Origin: a virus
DNA length: 34,126 nucleotides
Virus record (IMG/VR): IMGVR_UViG_3300030118_002659
Location: 1 to 34,126 of that record
Strand: one strand, 5' to 3'
In this document: positions 6,328 to 33,333 of the stretch, one piece after another
How the letters are laid out: the number at the start of each line of letters is the position of its first letter
Numbering within the stretch: the first letter of the stretch is position 1
The notes under the pieces: model-generated
What the model was told of the DNA's origin: nothing
Database searches by the model: none
Seen by the model: the letters and a program-made list of their open reading frames with translations, nothing else
Program-made: the position numbers and the translations under genes

Positions 6328-6353
6328 CAATGTTTAACAAAAAAAATTATAAC

Positions 6354-6926
6354 ATGAAAACAAAAGAAAAAACATTTACAGAATTCACTCCGATTGGCAA
6401 AACTTATTGGAATGATGAGGGATTTTATCAAAAAGAATATACTGAGCATTATGATTGGTATGTTCCAAATTCAGGCGATGCACCTACAATTCATGGGGAA
6501 TTATTAAGAGCAGTATCAAGATTGCATTATGATTATTTTAATAATGGTAATTGTAATATTCAGGAAGTAATTGAAGATGATTGTCCTGATTGTTATGGCA
6601 CAGGTTGGCAAGAAAGCGATTATGATGATGAGGATGAGATTGATTGCTCAAGTTGTGGTGGCGATTGTACATGGGAGACAGGAATTGAAATTAATGAGTA
6701 TTATCAAAGAATGATTGATTTTCTTATAGATTATTCTAATGCCCAAAAAGAGATTGATGAATTAGTTAAATTTTTGACCGACTATTATCATTATAGAAAC
6801 CCTAATTTGTTTGCTGAAAAGAATGAGCAACTTTACACAAGATTGGTTGATAAAATCATGCAACAGATTTTAACTGAGGGTAAAAATGGAAACAGACCAA
6901 ATCCTAAATTTAGAGAAGATGCATAG
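6354..6926 (+). CDS. Zinc-binding CxxCxGxG protein, function unknown
   Basis: A 190-residue protein from ATG 6354; an in-frame ATG at 6330 would add eight residues. 6354 is preferred because of its A-rich leader and the MKTKE start shared with the 5950 gene. It has paired motifs CPDCYGTGW and CSSCGGDC around a Asp/Glu-rich loop, a DnaJ-like zinc knuckle. Before it lies PTIHGELLRAVSRLHYDYFN, a segment I associate with small accessory proteins of phages and plasmids. The rest is helical. First gene of the P3 unit. Confidence 0.6.
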   Translation: MKTKEKTFTEFTPIGKTYWNDEGFYQKEYTEHYDWYVPNSGDAPTIHGELLRAVSRLHYDYFNNGNCNIQEVIEDDCPDCYGTGWQESDYDDEDEIDCSSCGGDCTWETGIEINEYYQRMIDFLIDYSNAQKEIDELVKFLTDYYHYRNPNLFAEKNEQLYTRLVDKIMQQILTEGKNGNRPNPKFREDA

Positions 6927-10273: not shown

Positions 10274-10984
10274 ATGGCAAGAAAGACAATAGAATTAGAA
10301 GTGCCAACAACTCTTGCAGACATTAAGTTGTGGCAATATCAAAAGTATATGAAAGTTGTGGATTCTCACAAAGACGCAGAAGAAACAGATGAGCTTGTAA
10401 ACTTTTTAAATATGAAGCTCGTTGAAATATTTTGTAACGTAAGTTTGAAAGATGTTTCTAAAATATCTGTAAGAGGATATAAAAGAATATTAGATATACT
10501 TAACAAAGCGTTTGAAGAGAAGCCTAAGCTAGTACAAAGATTTGAGCTAGAAGGAGTAGATATGGGATTTATACCAAAGTTAGATGATATTAGTTTAGGA
10601 GAATACATTGACATAGAAACTAACATTTCTGATTGGCAAAAAATGCATAAAGCAATGGCTGTATTATACAGACCAGTTAATTTTAAGTTAGGTAATAAAT
10701 ACGGAATCGCACCTTATGAAGTCAAAGAAGAAGTACAGGAAGCAATGAAAGAAATGCCAATGAATGTAGTAATAAGTTCAATGGTTTTTTTTTACGATTT
10801 AGGGAAAGCGTTACTGGGAGCTATACCGAAATATATGGAGAAGAATCTCACGAGTTCACAGATTTATCAGCTAGAGCAACATTTGCAAAAAAGTGGGGGT
10901 GGTATCAATCAATCTATGCACTTGCTAAAGGAAATGTCCTCGAGTTCGATAGGGTTACCAAATTACCACTTTTCCAATGTTTAA
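10274..10984 (+). CDS. Tail assembly chaperone, short (unshifted) form
   Basis: A 236-residue protein, the G-like product of the tail chaperone pair. It starts MARKTIELEVPTTLADIKLW and is helical and charged, with FFYDLGKALLGAIPKYMEKN and a KSGGGINQ segment near the C-terminus, as in Bacteroidota phage chaperones by memory. It opens the tail module, in the expected place ahead of the tape measure. A T9 run at 10785-10793 inside the gene allows a -1 shift into the T-like frame (see the next two entries). Chaperones of this kind coat the tape measure during tail assembly and are absent from the mature virion. Confidence 0.75.
   Translation: MARKTIELEVPTTLADIKLWQYQKYMKVVDSHKDAEETDELVNFLNMKLVEIFCNVSLKDVSKISVRGYKRILDILNKAFEEKPKLVQRFELEGVDMGFIPKLDDISLGEYIDIETNISDWQKMHKAMAVLYRPVNFKLGNKYGIAPYEVKEEVQEAMKEMPMNVVISSMVFFYDLGKALLGAIPKYMEKNLTSSQIYQLEQHLQKSGGGINQSMHLLKEMSSSSIGLPNYHFSNV
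10785..10793 (+). promoter_or_regulatory. Programmed -1 ribosomal frameshift site
   Basis: Nine T in a row. Read in frame as GTT TTT TTT TAC, it contains the canonical slippery heptamer T TTT TTT at 10786-10792. After a -1 slip the next codon is TTA (10792-10794). The -1 frame then stays open to 11055. Confidence 0.8.
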
Positions 10985-11055
10985 ATTATTTGGCATTTGA
11001 GAAAGAAAAAGTAGAAATAGAACAACAAGAAATAAAAAAGGCATATAAGATATGA
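10792..11055 (+). CDS. T-like extension of the tail chaperone (made by -1 frameshift)
   Basis: Eighty-seven codons in the -1 frame, open from 10720 to the TGA at 11053-11055, with no ATG or GTG anywhere and the first TTG far inside it. It can therefore be made only as a fusion: 173 residues of the 10274 gene plus 87, giving 260. The peptide FAKKWGWYQSIYALAKGNVL is a hallmark of such T extensions as I remember them, followed by VTKLPLFQCLNYLAFEKEK. Its stop overlaps the next start as ATGA, so the next gene is coupled to the shifted product. Confidence 0.8.
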   Translation, partial: LRFRESVTGSYTEIYGEESHEFTDLSARATFAKKWGWYQSIYALAKGNVLEFDRVTKLPLFQCLNYLAFEKEKVEIEQQEIKKAYKI

Positions 11056-11543
11056 CAACATTTTACGATATACTAGACACATTGAAAACATATCTTCAAG
11101 GTAATTCTAATATTAACACAGTTACATACGGAGATATATTTGAAGTAGATTTAGCAAAGCAAAGTATTTTTCCTTTGGCACATATTATAGTAAACAACTG
11201 TACATTTCAAGACCATGTAGTTGTATTTAATCTACAAATAATATGTATGGATGTAGTGCATGACACTAACGAAGATGTAAAAGACCAAGATAATTACTTT
11301 CATGGTATAAATAACAAACAGGATATATTAAACACAATGTTTTTTGTAGTTAATGGATTACAAAGTTCATTAAGAAGAGGAGAATTGTTTACAGATTTAT
11401 TTCAAGTAGAAAGTGATTTTACAGCAAATATGTTTGAAGATAGATTTGAGAATTTACTTGCTGGATGGTCAATGGACTTTGATGTAATAGTACCAAATAA
11501 TCAAATATCAGATATTAACGCTAACGGACAATCACCCTGCTAA
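11052..11543 (+). CDS. Tail protein, possibly tail terminator
   Basis: A 163-residue acidic protein (MTTFYDILDTLKTYLQGNSN...) with a strand-rich centre (FPLAHIIVNNCTFQDHVVVF) and a C-terminal GWSMDFDVIV strand. The size, fold pattern and place between the chaperone and a gp10-like protein fit a tail terminator or head-tail joining protein, but no diagnostic motif is visible. Confidence 0.5.
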   Translation: MTTFYDILDTLKTYLQGNSNINTVTYGDIFEVDLAKQSIFPLAHIIVNNCTFQDHVVVFNLQIICMDVVHDTNEDVKDQDNYFHGINNKQDILNTMFFVVNGLQSSLRRGELFTDLFQVESDFTANMFEDRFENLLAGWSMDFDVIVPNNQISDINANGQSPC

Positions 11544-12121: not shown

Positions 12122-13485
12122 TGAGTACAATCATAAACGCAAGAAGTCCATATTATTTTAAAGTATCTAATGCAGATTTAGATTCTGTAAAACTTCAATT
12201 ATATATTTGGACTGGAACACACGCACAAAGAACAAGTGCTTATTTGAGATATACAATAAGCAAAGACCAAAGATTAGATGAATTAGATAGAGGAACAACA
12301 ACATCAACTACTGCAAATAAATTAGTGGATAGTACACAAAACTTTAATACTACAGCACAAGTTGGTAGTTTTGTAAAGAACACTACAGATAATACTACAG
12401 CTAGTGTAACTGCTATTGATAGTGACACTACTTTGTCTTTAGATACAGATATTATGGCTTCTGGTGAAGAATATATATTATTTGCCAAACCTTATGTAGT
12501 ATTTGAATTAAGTGAGTTAATTAGAGATTATCTTGAAACAGAATATAATGATTATGCTACAGATGCAGTTTGGGTAGATGCAGATGTTACAATATATAAT
12601 TCTGCAGGTTCTATTGTTCAAGTAAATAGTCAAAACACAAATACAACTACTTTTCTTGGCATAGATGGATATGGATATTTTGAAGATGGTGTAAATCCAA
12701 GAGATACTTCAACACCTATGGTTTTACAAGACAATACTAATGTTTATTACTATGATGGGCAAGATATAAAAATACCTGTATTTGCAGAAGCAGCAACAAT
12801 AACTGTTTCTTTACAGTCTCAAGCTGCTGCTAATATTAATTGGGAAGCTGCTGATGACTTTTGGGAAACAAATGATAATACTTGGGGCTCAGGTAATGTT
12901 AATATATCTATAACAGATAATGGAAATACTGACCAAAAAATTCAATATGTAATTATTGAAGACACAGAAGATTTAGATGATGGAGATACGGTTACATTTT
13001 CTAGTAATAGCAGTGACTATCCAGATGATGTTGTTATTACATTAAAGAAAGTAAATGAATGTAAGTTCTCTCCTTTAAACACAATATTTTATAATAAATA
13101 TGGTGCTTTACAAAATATGTGGTTCTTTAAGAAATCAACAACTAACATTAATGTAAAATCTGAACAATTCAAGAATAATATATTGGATTTAGAAAACTCA
13201 GGAGGTACACCTTCTTATGCCTTAAGTAAACATCAAGAAAAGAAGTTTATGGTAAATGCCAAAGAATCTATAACAATGAATACAGGTTTTTATCCAGAAT
13301 CACATAATGAAGTTGTAAGACAGATGTTATTATCAGAACAAGTTTGGTCTGACGATACAAGCACTGTATTGCCAATAAACTTAAAATCTAATTCATTACA
13401 GTTTAAGAAATCTGTAAATGATAAATTAATTACATATACAGTTCAATTTGACTATGCGTTTGATAAGATAAATAATATTCTATAA
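12121..13485 (+). CDS. Virion tail protein with an inserted beta module
   Basis: A 454-residue beta-rich protein. The N-terminus NARSPYYFKV and the FELSELIRDYLET segment (128-140) match a tail protein family of flavobacterial phages as I remember it. Residues 58-121, rich in Thr and Asp (KLVDSTQNF ... VGSFVKNTTD ... LSLDTDIMASGEEYILF), look like a separate small beta domain inserted between them. ECKFSPLNTIFYNKYGALQN near residue 317 is another conserved-looking block. Probably part of the tail tip or baseplate. Confidence 0.55.
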   Translation: MSTIINARSPYYFKVSNADLDSVKLQLYIWTGTHAQRTSAYLRYTISKDQRLDELDRGTTTSTTANKLVDSTQNFNTTAQVGSFVKNTTDNTTASVTAIDSDTTLSLDTDIMASGEEYILFAKPYVVFELSELIRDYLETEYNDYATDAVWVDADVTIYNSAGSIVQVNSQNTNTTTFLGIDGYGYFEDGVNPRDTSTPMVLQDNTNVYYYDGQDIKIPVFAEAATITVSLQSQAAANINWEAADDFWETNDNTWGSGNVNISITDNGNTDQKIQYVIIEDTEDLDDGDTVTFSSNSSDYPDDVVITLKKVNECKFSPLNTIFYNKYGALQNMWFFKKSTTNINVKSEQFKNNILDLENSGGTPSYALSKHQEKKFMVNAKESITMNTGFYPESHNEVVRQMLLSEQVWSDDTSTVLPINLKSNSLQFKKSVNDKLITYTVQFDYAFDKINNIL

Positions 13486-15710
13486 TGCAAAAGATAGTTT
13501 TATACATAAAAGATGGCGATGATGTTTATCGAAGAGTTGATATGTTTGATGATGAAACAATAACTTTGACATCAAAGATTCAAGACGTAAGAGATATAGG
13601 AAAAGTATTTACTGATTTTAGTGAAACATTTACAGTTCCAGCTTCAAGAGAAAACAATAAAATATTTCAACATTGGTATAAACATGAAATAGATAATGGA
13701 TTTGATGCCAGAACTAGAAAAGATGCTATAATGGAAATGGACTTCTCTCCATTTAAAAGAGGTAAAATATCACTAGAGAATGTAAAGTTAAGAGACAATA
13801 AACCATTTTCATATACTGTTGTTTTTTATGGCAATCTAATAAATCTAAAAGATTTACTTGGTGATGATGAACTTAGTGACTTGCCTGAACTAGATGATTA
13901 TACACATGATTATAATAGTTCTAATGTTAAAACAGGATTACAAAGTGGATTATCTTCAGGCAAAATAGTATATCCTTTAATATCACATACTAAAAGATTT
14001 TACTATGATTCTGCAACATCAAGCCCACAATATAGTGGAAACTTGTATTATAATACAACAGCAAACAATATTGGACTTGCATTTGATGATTTAAAACCTG
14101 CAATAAAATGTTTGAGTATTATAGAAGCTATAGAAGATAAATATACAGTTGCAAACGGTTATGCATCTAATATTGTATTTACTAGAGATTTTTTTAATAA
14201 TACAGAGTTTTCTAATTTATATTTATGGTTAAGTAGAAACAAAGGACCTATAGGTGGCGATGAAAACCAAGAAGAAACATTAAGTAGAATATGTGGTGAT
14301 TGGGGTTTTTCTTCTGGTGATTTAGGATTTGCTGTTGATGGAGACACTTGGTCTTTTACAGTAGAAAATCTTAATGCAAGTTTCGAAGCTACATTGACTG
14401 TGACAACTACTGGAGGAAATACAAGTATTCCATTTAAAATGAAAGCCATTGATTATGTAAGTGGTACAACATTAAAAGAATCAACTATGGCTGCAGGTTC
14501 TAGTAGAACATTAACTTTTGAAGTAGCACAGAGTTTTAATCCTGTAAACTATCAGGTCAAATGGATTATTGAATCGAATACAGCAATTTCATTTACACCA
14601 CAAATAGAACTTACAAAGTTTATTATTACTAACGGAACAATATCAGGTCAAGATGATGCAGTTTATAATATTAACGGTACTGGTAATTCAATATCTACAG
14701 TTAGTGAAATTATTATTACTCAGAATGTGCCAAAGTTAAAAGTAATAGATTTTTTAACTGGCATATTTAAAATGTTTAATCTAACTGCATATTATGTAGA
14801 AGATGTTGGAGATGCAGATTTTGATAAAATTAAAGTAGATACTTTAGATGAGTTCTATGCTGATAGAGTTAATAATCCATCAGAAGGAGAATGGGATATA
14901 ACTAAGTTTGTAGATACATCAAGACTGCAAGTAAATAGAGCTTTCGAGTATAATGAAATAGATTTTAGCTATCAAGAGCCGAGCACTTTGTTATCTATAA
15001 ATCATCAAGAACAATTTAATGATATTTTTGGCGATGAAGAGGTTAGACCACAAAATATAGATAGAGGAACTTCGTATGAAGTTGAAGTGCCTTTTGAACA
15101 CATGAAGTTTGAAAGATTGTTTGATGAGAATGAAACATCAAGTAGCCCTTATGATTTAGCAGACACAGCATATTTAACTGACATATTGTGGGGGTATTCT
15201 GCTGCAGGAGAGTTTACATCTGATACAGACGTAACTCCTAATACTGGTAACTATGAACCTGTACTTACAAAACCATTAGTATTTTATGCAATTCAAGAAA
15301 CAGGATTAACTTCTGCAAAAGGAATTAAATGGATTTCTGATGGCACACCTATTTCTTTAACACAATATTATAGACCATCAAATACAAATGAAGATGGAAC
15401 AAGCTCAACAGCACCATCTTTTACTATAAACTTTGATGATGAGATTGATGAATGGAATTTACAAAACTACGGAGGAACAACTAACTCATTATTTAAGAAG
15501 TTTTATGCTACTTATATAAATGGAATATTTAATGAGAAAAAAAGAATATATAAATTAAAAGCATATTTATCTACTGATATTTTAGCAAACTATAGATTGA
15601 ATGATGAGCTTGTGATACAAAACAAGGTATATCGTATTAATTCTATAGAAACAAACTTTAATACAGAGGTAAGTAGTTTAGAACTTTTAAATAAATTAAG
15701 TGATGATTAG
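13485..15710 (+). CDS. Large tail tip / baseplate-type structural protein
   Basis: A 741-residue protein. The N-terminal stretch IQDVRDIGKVFTDFSETF, then TVPASRENNKIF and a GFDARTRKDA block, is characteristic of a large structural protein in flavobacterial phages. It is usually near the tape measure and often annotated as tail or baseplate. The middle (about 280-400) is beta-rich. The C-terminus (LIQNKVYRINSIETNF-like) resembles hub proteins. Overlaps the next small gene by 8 nt. Confidence 0.6.
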   Translation: MQKIVLYIKDGDDVYRRVDMFDDETITLTSKIQDVRDIGKVFTDFSETFTVPASRENNKIFQHWYKHEIDNGFDARTRKDAIMEMDFSPFKRGKISLENVKLRDNKPFSYTVVFYGNLINLKDLLGDDELSDLPELDDYTHDYNSSNVKTGLQSGLSSGKIVYPLISHTKRFYYDSATSSPQYSGNLYYNTTANNIGLAFDDLKPAIKCLSIIEAIEDKYTVANGYASNIVFTRDFFNNTEFSNLYLWLSRNKGPIGGDENQEETLSRICGDWGFSSGDLGFAVDGDTWSFTVENLNASFEATLTVTTTGGNTSIPFKMKAIDYVSGTTLKESTMAAGSSRTLTFEVAQSFNPVNYQVKWIIESNTAISFTPQIELTKFIITNGTISGQDDAVYNINGTGNSISTVSEIIITQNVPKLKVIDFLTGIFKMFNLTAYYVEDVGDADFDKIKVDTLDEFYADRVNNPSEGEWDITKFVDTSRLQVNRAFEYNEIDFSYQEPSTLLSINHQEQFNDIFGDEEVRPQNIDRGTSYEVEVPFEHMKFERLFDENETSSSPYDLADTAYLTDILWGYSAAGEFTSDTDVTPNTGNYEPVLTKPLVFYAIQETGLTSAKGIKWISDGTPISLTQYYRPSNTNEDGTSSTAPSFTINFDDEIDEWNLQNYGGTTNSLFKKFYATYINGIFNEKKRIYKLKAYLSTDILANYRLNDELVIQNKVYRINSIETNFNTEVSSLELLNKLSDD

Positions 15711-15849
15711 AAACATAATAGATTTACTTAACGCTTCTGATTGGTATGGAGAAGATGAATTAATTGAGATTGCCAAAGGTAAATACGCAGGAGTGCGTAA
15801 TTATAAAGAAATGAAACAACAACTAAAAAGATTGAAGCATGGCAAGTAA
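15703..15849 (+). CDS. Small basic protein upstream of the tape measure
   Basis: A 48-residue protein: MIRNIIDLLNASDWYGEDEL, IEIAKGKYAGVRNYKEMKQQ, LKRLKHGK. It overlaps the tail protein before it by 8 nt and the tape measure by 11 nt. It fills the only gap in the tail operon, supporting a real gene. The LLNASDWYGEDELIEIAKGKY pattern seems familiar as a short phage protein, but no function is known. Confidence 0.6.
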   Translation: MIRNIIDLLNASDWYGEDELIEIAKGKYAGVRNYKEMKQQLKRLKHGK

Positions 15850-17440
15850 GAAAATATTAATTAGTGTAGATATAACAACTAAATCTGCTGAAGTAAATGT
15901 AGATAAGGTAGTAGATAAACTAAAACAATTAGAAGGAGCACAAACAAAAGTCACAAAAGCTACAGAAAAAGGTAGAGCACAATCTGGTCTTAATAATGCA
16001 ATATTATTAGAAACTGGTCGTTTAGCTTCAGATGCTTCTTATGGTTTTACAGCTATTGCCAACAACTTGTCACAAGTAGTAACATTGTTTGCTAGTTTTA
16101 TAGAAACAAATAAAAGTGTAACAAAATCATTTAAAGAACTAGGAAAATCATTAATTGGTACTGGTGGATTTTTAATTGTTGTACAGCTTTTAATTTCATT
16201 TGGACCTAAATTAATGGAAATGTTGAAAGGAGTTACTCAAGAAATGAAGGACCTTAAAGACATTCAAAAAGAAGCTGCAGGTGCAGCAGGAGAGCAAATT
16301 GGTCAATTGCAAACACTTGTAAGAATATTAGATGATAGCACACAATCTTCTTTTGAGAAACAAGCAGCTTTAGATAAGTTAAGAAAAGAACACAAAAAAT
16401 TAAATATAGAGTTAAATGAAGAAGGAACATTAACTGAAGAATCTAAAAAAGCTATAGAAGAATATATACCTGTATTAAAACAAAAAGCATTGGCAAATGC
16501 TATTATGACTAAGATACAAGCTAAATATGTAGAGATGCTTGAAGTTGAACAATCTTCAATTGCAGATAACATAAAATGGTATGAAGCAGCTTTAGCATTT
16601 CTTAAATCAGGAGGTCAAGCAACTTCAGAAGAATTAGCAAAACTTACTTTAAAGGGTAAAGAAAGAAGAGAAGAAACAATTGCAGAGATTCAAGAAGACA
16701 TAAATGCACTTATAGAATCGTTTGCAGAACTTGACACTATTGGAACTGACCCTGAGGAAACAGCTCCAGTCAAAACAGTTAAAGCAATACAAAGCGTATT
16801 GAAAACTACGAATAAAGAAGCATTTAAAGACGCAGATGATTTCTTAAAGAATTTAGCTAAAAATTCAGATACTCAATTAAAAATTAGAGCTAAAGAATTA
16901 AAAGATGCAGATACAATGCAAAGAAAAGCAAGTAAAGATTCTATAAAATTAGCTGAAATAGAAAGAGATTCTAAATTACAAGCGTATCAAGATGTAGGTA
17001 ATGGCTTGATGGCTTTAAGTCAATTAGCTGGTAAAGAAACTGGAGTTGGTAAAACTTTAGCCATAGCTTCAACTTTAATATCAACTTATGCTGCAGCACA
17101 AAGAGCTTATGAAAGTCAATTTAATTTACCAACATTAGATGCTCCTGCAAGAGCAGCTATTGCGGCAGCAGCAGCTATTGCTCAAGGTTTAGCCAATATT
17201 GCAGCTATAAGGAAAGTACAAACACCTGCAGGAGCTGGTGGAGGTGGAGGTGGAGCAGTTACGCCAACAACAGTAGAAGCTCCTGACTTTAATGTAGTAG
17301 GAGCAGGAGGTGTTTCACAATTAGCTACAGGATTAGCTGGAATTACTGGCAAACCAATTCAAGCATTTGTAGTTAGTAAAGAAATATCATCAGCACAAGA
17401 ACTAGACAGAAACATTACAGGAAACGCATCTTTAGGTTAA
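15839..17440 (+). CDS. Tail tape measure protein
   Basis: A 533-residue protein, mostly alpha-helical. It has a hydrophobic segment near residues 105-122 (LIGTGGFLIVVQLLISFG), long charged coiled-coil regions (130-340), then an Ala-rich region LASTLISTYAAAQRAYESQF and AAIAQGLANIAAIRKVQTP followed by a Gly-rich linker. These are typical of tape measures. At about 0.15 nm per residue (the usual ruler relation) the tail would be near 80 nm. No contractile sheath gene is visible, so a siphovirus-like tail is inferred. Confidence 0.8.
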   Translation: MASKKILISVDITTKSAEVNVDKVVDKLKQLEGAQTKVTKATEKGRAQSGLNNAILLETGRLASDASYGFTAIANNLSQVVTLFASFIETNKSVTKSFKELGKSLIGTGGFLIVVQLLISFGPKLMEMLKGVTQEMKDLKDIQKEAAGAAGEQIGQLQTLVRILDDSTQSSFEKQAALDKLRKEHKKLNIELNEEGTLTEESKKAIEEYIPVLKQKALANAIMTKIQAKYVEMLEVEQSSIADNIKWYEAALAFLKSGGQATSEELAKLTLKGKERREETIAEIQEDINALIESFAELDTIGTDPEETAPVKTVKAIQSVLKTTNKEAFKDADDFLKNLAKNSDTQLKIRAKELKDADTMQRKASKDSIKLAEIERDSKLQAYQDVGNGLMALSQLAGKETGVGKTLAIASTLISTYAAAQRAYESQFNLPTLDAPARAAIAAAAAIAQGLANIAAIRKVQTPAGAGGGGGGAVTPTTVEAPDFNVVGAGGVSQLATGLAGITGKPIQAFVVSKEISSAQELDRNITGNASLG

Positions 17441-31602: not shown

Positions 31603-33333
31603 ATGAAAACAGAATTTGAGAAAATAGGTATTATACCAAAAAACAATAATACACAACAAAAAGTAAAGTGTCCGAATTGTTACAAGATTGGCAAAGAAAA
31701 CTACAAAGACCCATGTTTAAGCATTAACTTAGATACAGGTCAGTTTCTTTGTCATAAATGTACATGGAAGGGCACTGTTAAAAGAAATTATTTTATGCCA
31801 GAGGTAAAAGTTTATGAAAAACCTGTAAAGAATAACTTAAAAAAGTTAAATCAAAGGGCTAGAAAGTTTTTAAATAAAAGAGGTATAACTGATGAAGTTA
31901 TTGAAACAAACAAAATAGTAAGTTCAAAGGATGGCAAAAGTATAGTGTTTCCATATTTCAGAAACAATGAATTGATAAATTATAAAACTAGAGGTGTAAA
32001 TGATAAATTCTTTACACAAAGTAGAAATGGTTTGCCAATTATATACAACTATGATAGGGTTGCCAATGAAAAATTAATAATTATTTGTGAGGGTGAACTT
32101 GATTCGTTAAGTTGGGAGGTTGCAGGTATTACTTGGCATACTTCTGTAAATATGGGTGCACCAAACGTGCATGACAAAAACTTAGATAAAAAGTTAGAAT
32201 GTATATCTAATTGCTATGAAGTATTTGAACAAGCTGAACGAATTTATGTAGCAACTGATGATGATGATAATGGCAGATATTTATCTGAAGAGTTAGTTAG
32301 AAGATTTGGTGCTGAAAAATGTAAAATAGTTTGTTTTAAACCCTATAAAGATGCCAATGAATTATTATTAGCTGAGGGTGTAGAAGCATTAAAAGATAGG
32401 GTAAGACAAGCATCTGACCCTAAGATTGAAGGTATTTTTGGCATTGATGACATATATGATTCAATGTTAGATAATTATAGAAATGGACAGGAAAGAGGTA
32501 CTACAACCTATATTCCTGCAGTAGATTCAGCATGGACTTGGAGAAATGGTGAACTAAATATTTGGACAGGTTATCAAAACGAGGGAAAGAGTATGTTTTT
32601 AAATCAACTGGCATTATTAAAAGCTATTTACGATGGTTGGAAGTTCGGAGTGTTTTCACCTGAAAATATGCCAATAAATGATTTTTATAATGACTTAATT
32701 GAAACTTATATTGGCAAATCTGCAGACCCATATTTTGAGAATAATTACATGAGTGAAGATGAATTTAAAGAGGGTATGGAATTTATGAAGCGACATTTTT
32801 TTATAATATATCCAAAAAAAAGTTATAAATTAGAAGACATATTTGAAAGGGCTAAGTTTTTAGTCAAGTCAAAAGGCATACGTTCTTTGATAATAGACCC
32901 CTATAATACAATTCAACATAGGATGCAACATGGAGAGAGAGAAGATTTATATATAAGTAGATTTATGAGTGAGTTGAAAAGGTTTGCTATTGAGAATAAA
33001 ATATCAATTCATTTAGTAGCACACCAAGTAACACCACAAAAAGATGACAACAACAAATATTATAAACCTGATTTAAATAGAATAAAAGGTGGGGGAACAT
33101 TTTCAGATAAAGCCGACAATGTATTATTTGTATGGCGACCCAATAGAGCAATAGATTTTTCTGATACATCTGTAATCTTTGGCAGTCAAAAAATAAAAAA
33201 GCAAAAACTCGTAGGTTATCCACAGGAGATACATGGCATAACTTTCGACAGAAAATCATCGAGATATTTTTTTCATAATGAAACACCATTTGAAGAAATT
33301 GATAAATTTCGATGCGAAGAAGAGCAAGAGTAG
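31603..33333 (+). CDS. Primase-helicase (T7 gp4-like)
   Basis: A 576-residue bifunctional replication enzyme. The N-terminal zinc ribbon has C23, C26, C50 and C53. TOPRIM follows, with IICEGELDSLSW (E164) and IYVATDDDDNG (219-224). The helicase half has a Walker A-like GYQNEGKS (323-330), Walker B-like IRSLIIDPYN and HLVAHQ near residue 470. KGGGTFSDKADNVLFVWRPN is the arginine-finger region. Domain order and length match T7 gp4 and its relatives. Overlaps the next gene by 22 nt. Confidence 0.88.
   Translation: MKTEFEKIGIIPKNNNTQQKVKCPNCYKIGKENYKDPCLSINLDTGQFLCHKCTWKGTVKRNYFMPEVKVYEKPVKNNLKKLNQRARKFLNKRGITDEVIETNKIVSSKDGKSIVFPYFRNNELINYKTRGVNDKFFTQSRNGLPIIYNYDRVANEKLIIICEGELDSLSWEVAGITWHTSVNMGAPNVHDKNLDKKLECISNCYEVFEQAERIYVATDDDDNGRYLSEELVRRFGAEKCKIVCFKPYKDANELLLAEGVEALKDRVRQASDPKIEGIFGIDDIYDSMLDNYRNGQERGTTTYIPAVDSAWTWRNGELNIWTGYQNEGKSMFLNQLALLKAIYDGWKFGVFSPENMPINDFYNDLIETYIGKSADPYFENNYMSEDEFKEGMEFMKRHFFIIYPKKSYKLEDIFERAKFLVKSKGIRSLIIDPYNTIQHRMQHGEREDLYISRFMSELKRFAIENKISIHLVAHQVTPQKDDNNKYYKPDLNRIKGGGTFSDKADNVLFVWRPNRAIDFSDTSVIFGSQKIKKQKLVGYPQEIHGITFDRKSSRYFFHNETPFEEIDKFRCEEEQE

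Follow-up and report, generated by a model that had tools for sequence, protein, structure and literature searches.

What does the gene that begins at position 10274 of this viral DNA encode, one protein or two? The stretch that we analyzed, called here the window, comprises 34,126 nucleotides (positions 1 to 34,126 of IMG/VR virus record IMGVR_UViG_3300030118_002659). A -1 frameshift in the tail chaperone gene is a known device of tailed phages for tail building, and an earlier reading of the window, made from the letters alone, proposed a shift of this type on a T9 run within the 10274 frame. The comparisons described below indicate that two proteins are very probably made from one message by a -1 slip on this run. 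We consider it probable, by a comfortable measure, that the gene is a G/GT-type tail assembly chaperone of a long-tailed Bacteroidetes phage, in which the ribosomal slip would produce a G-T fusion.

Results

Slip site and reading frames in the window

The anatomy of the locus (Table 1) confirmed the earlier description to the base, including the 236-residue unshifted product. The slippery heptamer stands in register with the 10274 frame, where the codons GTT TTT TTT specify V171, F172 and F173, and the next zero-frame codon is TAC. The -1 frame is stop-free from 10720 to its TGA at 11053-11055 and, as had been read, contains neither ATG nor GTG; of the usual starts it has only a TTG, at 10990, from which a product of 21 aa would result. 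The TGA overlaps the ATG of the next gene (11052-11054) as ATGA. A slip would join 171 residues to the 89 of the extension, giving the predicted fusion of 260 aa with the junction VFFLRFR.

Table 1. Features of the frameshift locus and its surroundings (positions in the window)
Feature	Positions	Strand	Basis
Zero-frame ORF, putative G-like tail assembly chaperone, 236 aa	10274..10984	+	ORF, PHROG 32199, IMG/VR relatives, AF2
T9 run	10785..10793	+	read directly
Slippery heptamer T_TTT_TTT, in register with the 10274 frame	10786..10792	+	relatives
-1 frame T-like extension, 89 residues from the slip, reached only by frameshift	10786..11055	+	
Dual-coded stretch, predicted folded G end (zero frame) and flexible T linker (-1 frame)	10793..10891	+	synonymous suppression in both frames
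Zero-frame G tail, stop-free, little constrained, overlapping the predicted folded WGWYQSIY helices of T	10892..10984	+	
Next gene, 163 aa, PHROG 30964	11052..11543	+	
Putative tape measure protein gene	15839..17440	+	match to the tail tape measure protein annotated in Olleya phage Harreka_1 (30% identity, E 4e-9)

Heptamers of the form X_XXY_YYZ occur 76 times in the 9698 codon positions of the window, and four of these are T_TTT_TTT. Since such a heptamer is by itself not rare in an AT-rich phage, relatives had to decide. The three further in-register copies of T_TTT_TTT lie at 14189, 32796 and 33267, within the genes at 13485-15710 and 31603-33333. T9 runs number fewer than expected (3 seen, about 10 expected in shuffles), and the run studied here is the window's only run of nine bases within a gene.

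A slip at the A6 run just before the WGW had been offered as a weaker alternative, and we rejected it. This run is out of register in the window, where the zero frame reads CAA AAA AGT, and in many relatives, and the -1 frame is already constrained from the T run on, which precedes the A6 run by about 90-100 nt. Elsewhere in the window, at 6330-6926, a 198-aa ORF carries two C-x-x-C pairs (CPDCYGTGW ... CSSCGGDC) that resemble a DnaJ-type zinc-binding motif.

Conservation among relatives

A scan with the zero-frame protein yielded 80 IMG/VR loci and a separate scan with an alignment of the -1 peptide another 80, some contigs being common to both sets; the 154 pooled loci reduced to 91 non-redundant ones. 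The second scan confirmed coding relatives of the -1 part in at least 590 IMG/VR stretches, and a scan of GTDB genomes gave two loci, one in a Bacteroidetes genome bin and one in a Flavobacteriaceae genome bin.

T_TTT_TTT is in register at 90 of the 91 non-redundant loci, whereas upstream Phe codons are TTT in only about 74% of cases. While an in-register heptamer proves little alone, this conservation is the evidence that the site is not due to chance. The length of the T run, a point on which the sequence-only reading had depended, is exactly nine in 89 of the 91, and the homologues have kept the open -1 frame together with the heptamer. Within the -1 peptide set plus the two genome loci, the heptamer lies no more than 3 nt from the start of the -1 match in all 78 loci examined, each of which (78/78) also has a long zero-frame ORF upstream. 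In several relatives a -1 stop lies only 3 nt upstream of the -1 match and thereby fixes how far 5' the shift can be placed, and the conserved -1 sequence starts at the slip as FFLxFR. These comparisons indicate that a large family of marine Bacteroidetes-type phages has conserved the frameshift, which had previously escaped annotation.

The one non-redundant locus without T_TTT_TTT has A_AAT_TTT. This heptamer, found in loci L076 and L077, contains only four T and no homopolymer and permits tandem -1 slippage; both loci keep the two frames.

The -1 segment might instead be a separate gene with its own start, as the annotation of phage P12024L with two genes, gp40 and gp41, would have it, or a broken remnant. 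We judge this very improbable. Against it stand the lack of ATG and GTG in the open -1 frame, the start of its conservation at the slip, and the persistence of frames and site over the 91 loci.

Selection on the two frames

The zero frame runs on without a stop for 172-274 nt past the slip in all 91 non-redundant loci except that of P12024L (85 nt), and for 199 nt in the window. At eight loci (L107, L109, L133, L134, L137, L151, L154 and L155) it is open for 262-274 nt and its ORF reaches near or beyond the -1 stop, so that the T-coding sequence is nearly all nested within it. When the -1 protein was recoded with local codon usage, the zero frame stayed open at P 0.0015-0.14 per representative. 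These values, which count the -1 frame only, also bear on the possibility that an indel introduced into the T9 run by sequencing or assembly has split what is truly a single frame. Homopolymers are indeed prone to error. Such an indel is nevertheless scarcely credible and already contradicted by the relatives: the same T9 recurs in independent assemblies and in the isolate genome of P12024L, and L076 and L077, which lack the T9 run, maintain both frames.

Synonymous change was analyzed in 34 minimum-spanning-tree pairs from 35 close relatives. Relative to expectation, zero-frame synonymous change was 1.06 just before the slip (codons 155-169) and, after it, 0.38 (codons 175-189) and then 0.08 (codons 205-219), a collapse at the slip that implies translation of the -1 frame. 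In the -1 frame itself, synonymous change was 0.20-0.46 of expected over about the first 35 codons and 0.70-1.05 at codons 30-60; windows past the zero-frame stop gave about 0.7, the suppression in the first part being clear and the baseline variable. The distribution of variation over codon positions in four clades was flat for about 30 codons and then mostly resembled that of a -1 frame, single comparisons often being non-significant. Protein constraint thus acts on both frames over about the first 95-105 nt after the slip, and farther on that of the -1 frame prevails. In the zero-frame G tail that follows, the -1 synonymous rate is closer to normal and zero-frame stops are avoided. The sequence evolves in either frame as that of a translated protein does, the two frames meeting at the slip. 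The proposal of a programmed -1 frameshift with a T-like extension is in this way supported by the conserved heptamer, the T9 run, the open -1 frame and the synonymous collapse.

RNA structure is another possible cause of suppressed synonymous change. The nucleotides of the dual-coded stretch do vary, and no stable or covarying RNA structure was detected within 140 nt downstream of the slip; a stimulatory hairpin in this region is unsupported (z of +1.07 and -0.13, no compensatory pairs). Stimulatory structures are common in -1 frameshifting and are not required for it. In Escherichia coli, U_UUU_UUU shifts less readily than A_AAA_AAG (PMC5009743). Given this, and as no structure was detected just downstream, the efficiency of the slip may be low.

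Predicted structures

Since the fusion is encoded in two frames, separate AF2 models were made for G and the T part. The G model (mean pLDDT 80) is confident to about residue 200 and falls below 50 for residues 207-236. The T part is predicted to form helices at 26-46, 51-58 and 62-87, with residues 13-24 poorly predicted and confidence beginning at about 26-30. In these models, fold and selection patterns match, the folded G end lying opposite the T linker and the folded T domain opposite the flexible G tail.

The long, conserved and partly dual-coded C terminus of G is absent from the earlier reading. We lean, by a small margin of confidence, toward the view that the unshifted product is more than a truncated form of the fusion. 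In this scenario, about 30-35 codons are constrained in both frames, G and G-T have distinct, selected C termini, and constraint passes from the folded G end to the folded T domain, each of which faces a flexible segment encoded in the other frame.

Discussion

Our data suggest that G and G-T share their N terminus through a frameshift, a relation that we draw from comparative sequence data. We propose that most ribosomes would read on to 10984, generating the 236-residue G protein, while a minority, with tRNA-Phe on both codons of the heptamer, would slip back one base and generate the 260-residue G-T.

The slip could also take place during transcription. RNA polymerase might slip on the T9 run and add one U, after which normal translation would make the same 260-residue fusion with the identical junction sequence. 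In many bacteria, selection against polymerase slippage becomes evident once a run reaches nine A or T, and 9A/9T runs are documented to be selected against within coding regions (PMC1088944). The nearly invariant nine T among the relatives, and the standing of this run as the only one of its length within a gene of the window, would be in keeping with such an origin. We nevertheless think it unlikely and favor, from the sequence comparisons, slippage by the ribosome. First, L076 and L077 retain both frames with four T only. Second, T9 needs no selection of its own, as amino acid constraints in the two frames can account for it: a V, L or I codon supplies the 5' T, and a -1 Leu codon of TTA or TTG forces the 3' T and limits the zero-frame residue after the heptamer to Tyr, Trp or Cys. 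This residue is one of these three in 88 of the 91 loci and otherwise Leu (two loci) or Ile (one). The natural T9 site and its A_AAT_TTT variant offer material for separating ribosomal from polymerase slippage.

With respect to function, the gene is likely a tail chaperone. Part of what had been claimed here stands: the putative tape measure gene lies 4.9 kb downstream on the same strand and in the same gene block, and the G model shows a weak fold match to a known chaperone. Among 213 re-aligned PDB chains, the top-ranked was the HK97 tail assembly chaperone (2ob9), at a weak Z of 4.2, with 65 residues aligned over residues 7-84 of the G model at an rmsd of 3.0 Å. What the searches did not supply is a sequence family that confirms the name. 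The zero-frame protein matches PHROG 32199 (E 1.6e-20, residues 8-180), and sequence searches of Pfam, NCBIfam and PDB gave no meaningful match. A Foldseek search of PDB with the G model gave none at E <= 0.001. Matches in BFVD were mostly unnamed phage proteins, including those of P12024S and Flavobacterium phage 6H, and a match named tail assembly chaperone reached only E 0.22. The T model, when re-aligned, retrieved only Fis-like chains (Z 2.0-2.2).

These results leave a small chance, a little lower than that given to polymerase slippage, that the frameshift is real and the protein is a different morphogenesis factor. The lack of a named family or strong fold match would accord with this, as would the 4.9 kb that separate the gene from the tape measure gene. 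Against it stand the shared strand and gene block, the first rank, though weak, of the HK97 chaperone, and the fact that a -1 fusion of such anatomy is characteristic of G/GT genes (PMC5009743). Together, tape measure synteny and frameshift anatomy make a G/GT chaperone the best reading. In lambda, G and GT bind the tape measure protein and T recruits the tail subunit (PMC5009743). By analogy, the G and G-T proteins of the window may bind the putative tape measure protein, and the T part may recruit tail tube subunits.

With this analysis, a large and unannotated family of marine Bacteroidetes-type phages gains a defined G/GT-type frameshift, and gene calls within the family are corrected. The closest case in a named phage is that of Nonlabens phage P12024L, in which gp40 and gp41 are annotated as two hypothetical proteins. 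Both frames are homologous to those of the window at about 30-36% identity (about 30% for the -1 part), the T9 site is the same, and gene order is shared, with the same 741-residue gene downstream. These two genes (L081, 9001-9695) look like one frameshifted gene, differing from that of the window in the early zero-frame stop. In Flavobacterium phage 6H, gp10 (L165, 10352-10927, minus strand) appears to be a fold match of the window G protein. This candidate gene lies upstream of a gene annotated as tape measure, and past the gp10 stop the -1 frame remains open over a T-like segment (GLGMKGVLLSMAESGVYG...); no clean canonical slip site was identified there.

Among the classical systems, the HK97 chaperone resembles the window's gene in its annotated -1 fusion and its weak fold match, and differs in that no sequence similarity was found. 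The T part showed no profile similarity to the T parts of HK97 and P2 (hhalign). The E/E+E' gene of P2 shares a slip on a T run (T_TTT_TTG) and a short -1 part, which counts 59 residues after the slip. In lambda, similarly, a T part is added by -1 slippage that occurs at a low level close to the end of G, and the tape measure gene lies downstream (PMC5009743). Unlike in the window, lambda slips on G_GGA_AAG and has the tape measure gene next door, and no sequence relation was detected.

A further difference concerns the length of zero frame that follows the slip. By the same measure as in the window, it is 25 nt in lambda, 28 nt in P2 and 34 nt in TP901-1, the three phages on which this comparison rests, HK97 being omitted since the region around the gp13 end yielded no canonical heptamer. 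The corresponding length in the window and its family (see above) makes the dual-coded overlap, as measured against these three, several times longer. Thus, while the type of frameshift is known, its unusually long and partly dual-coded overlap is the part that is notable for specialists.
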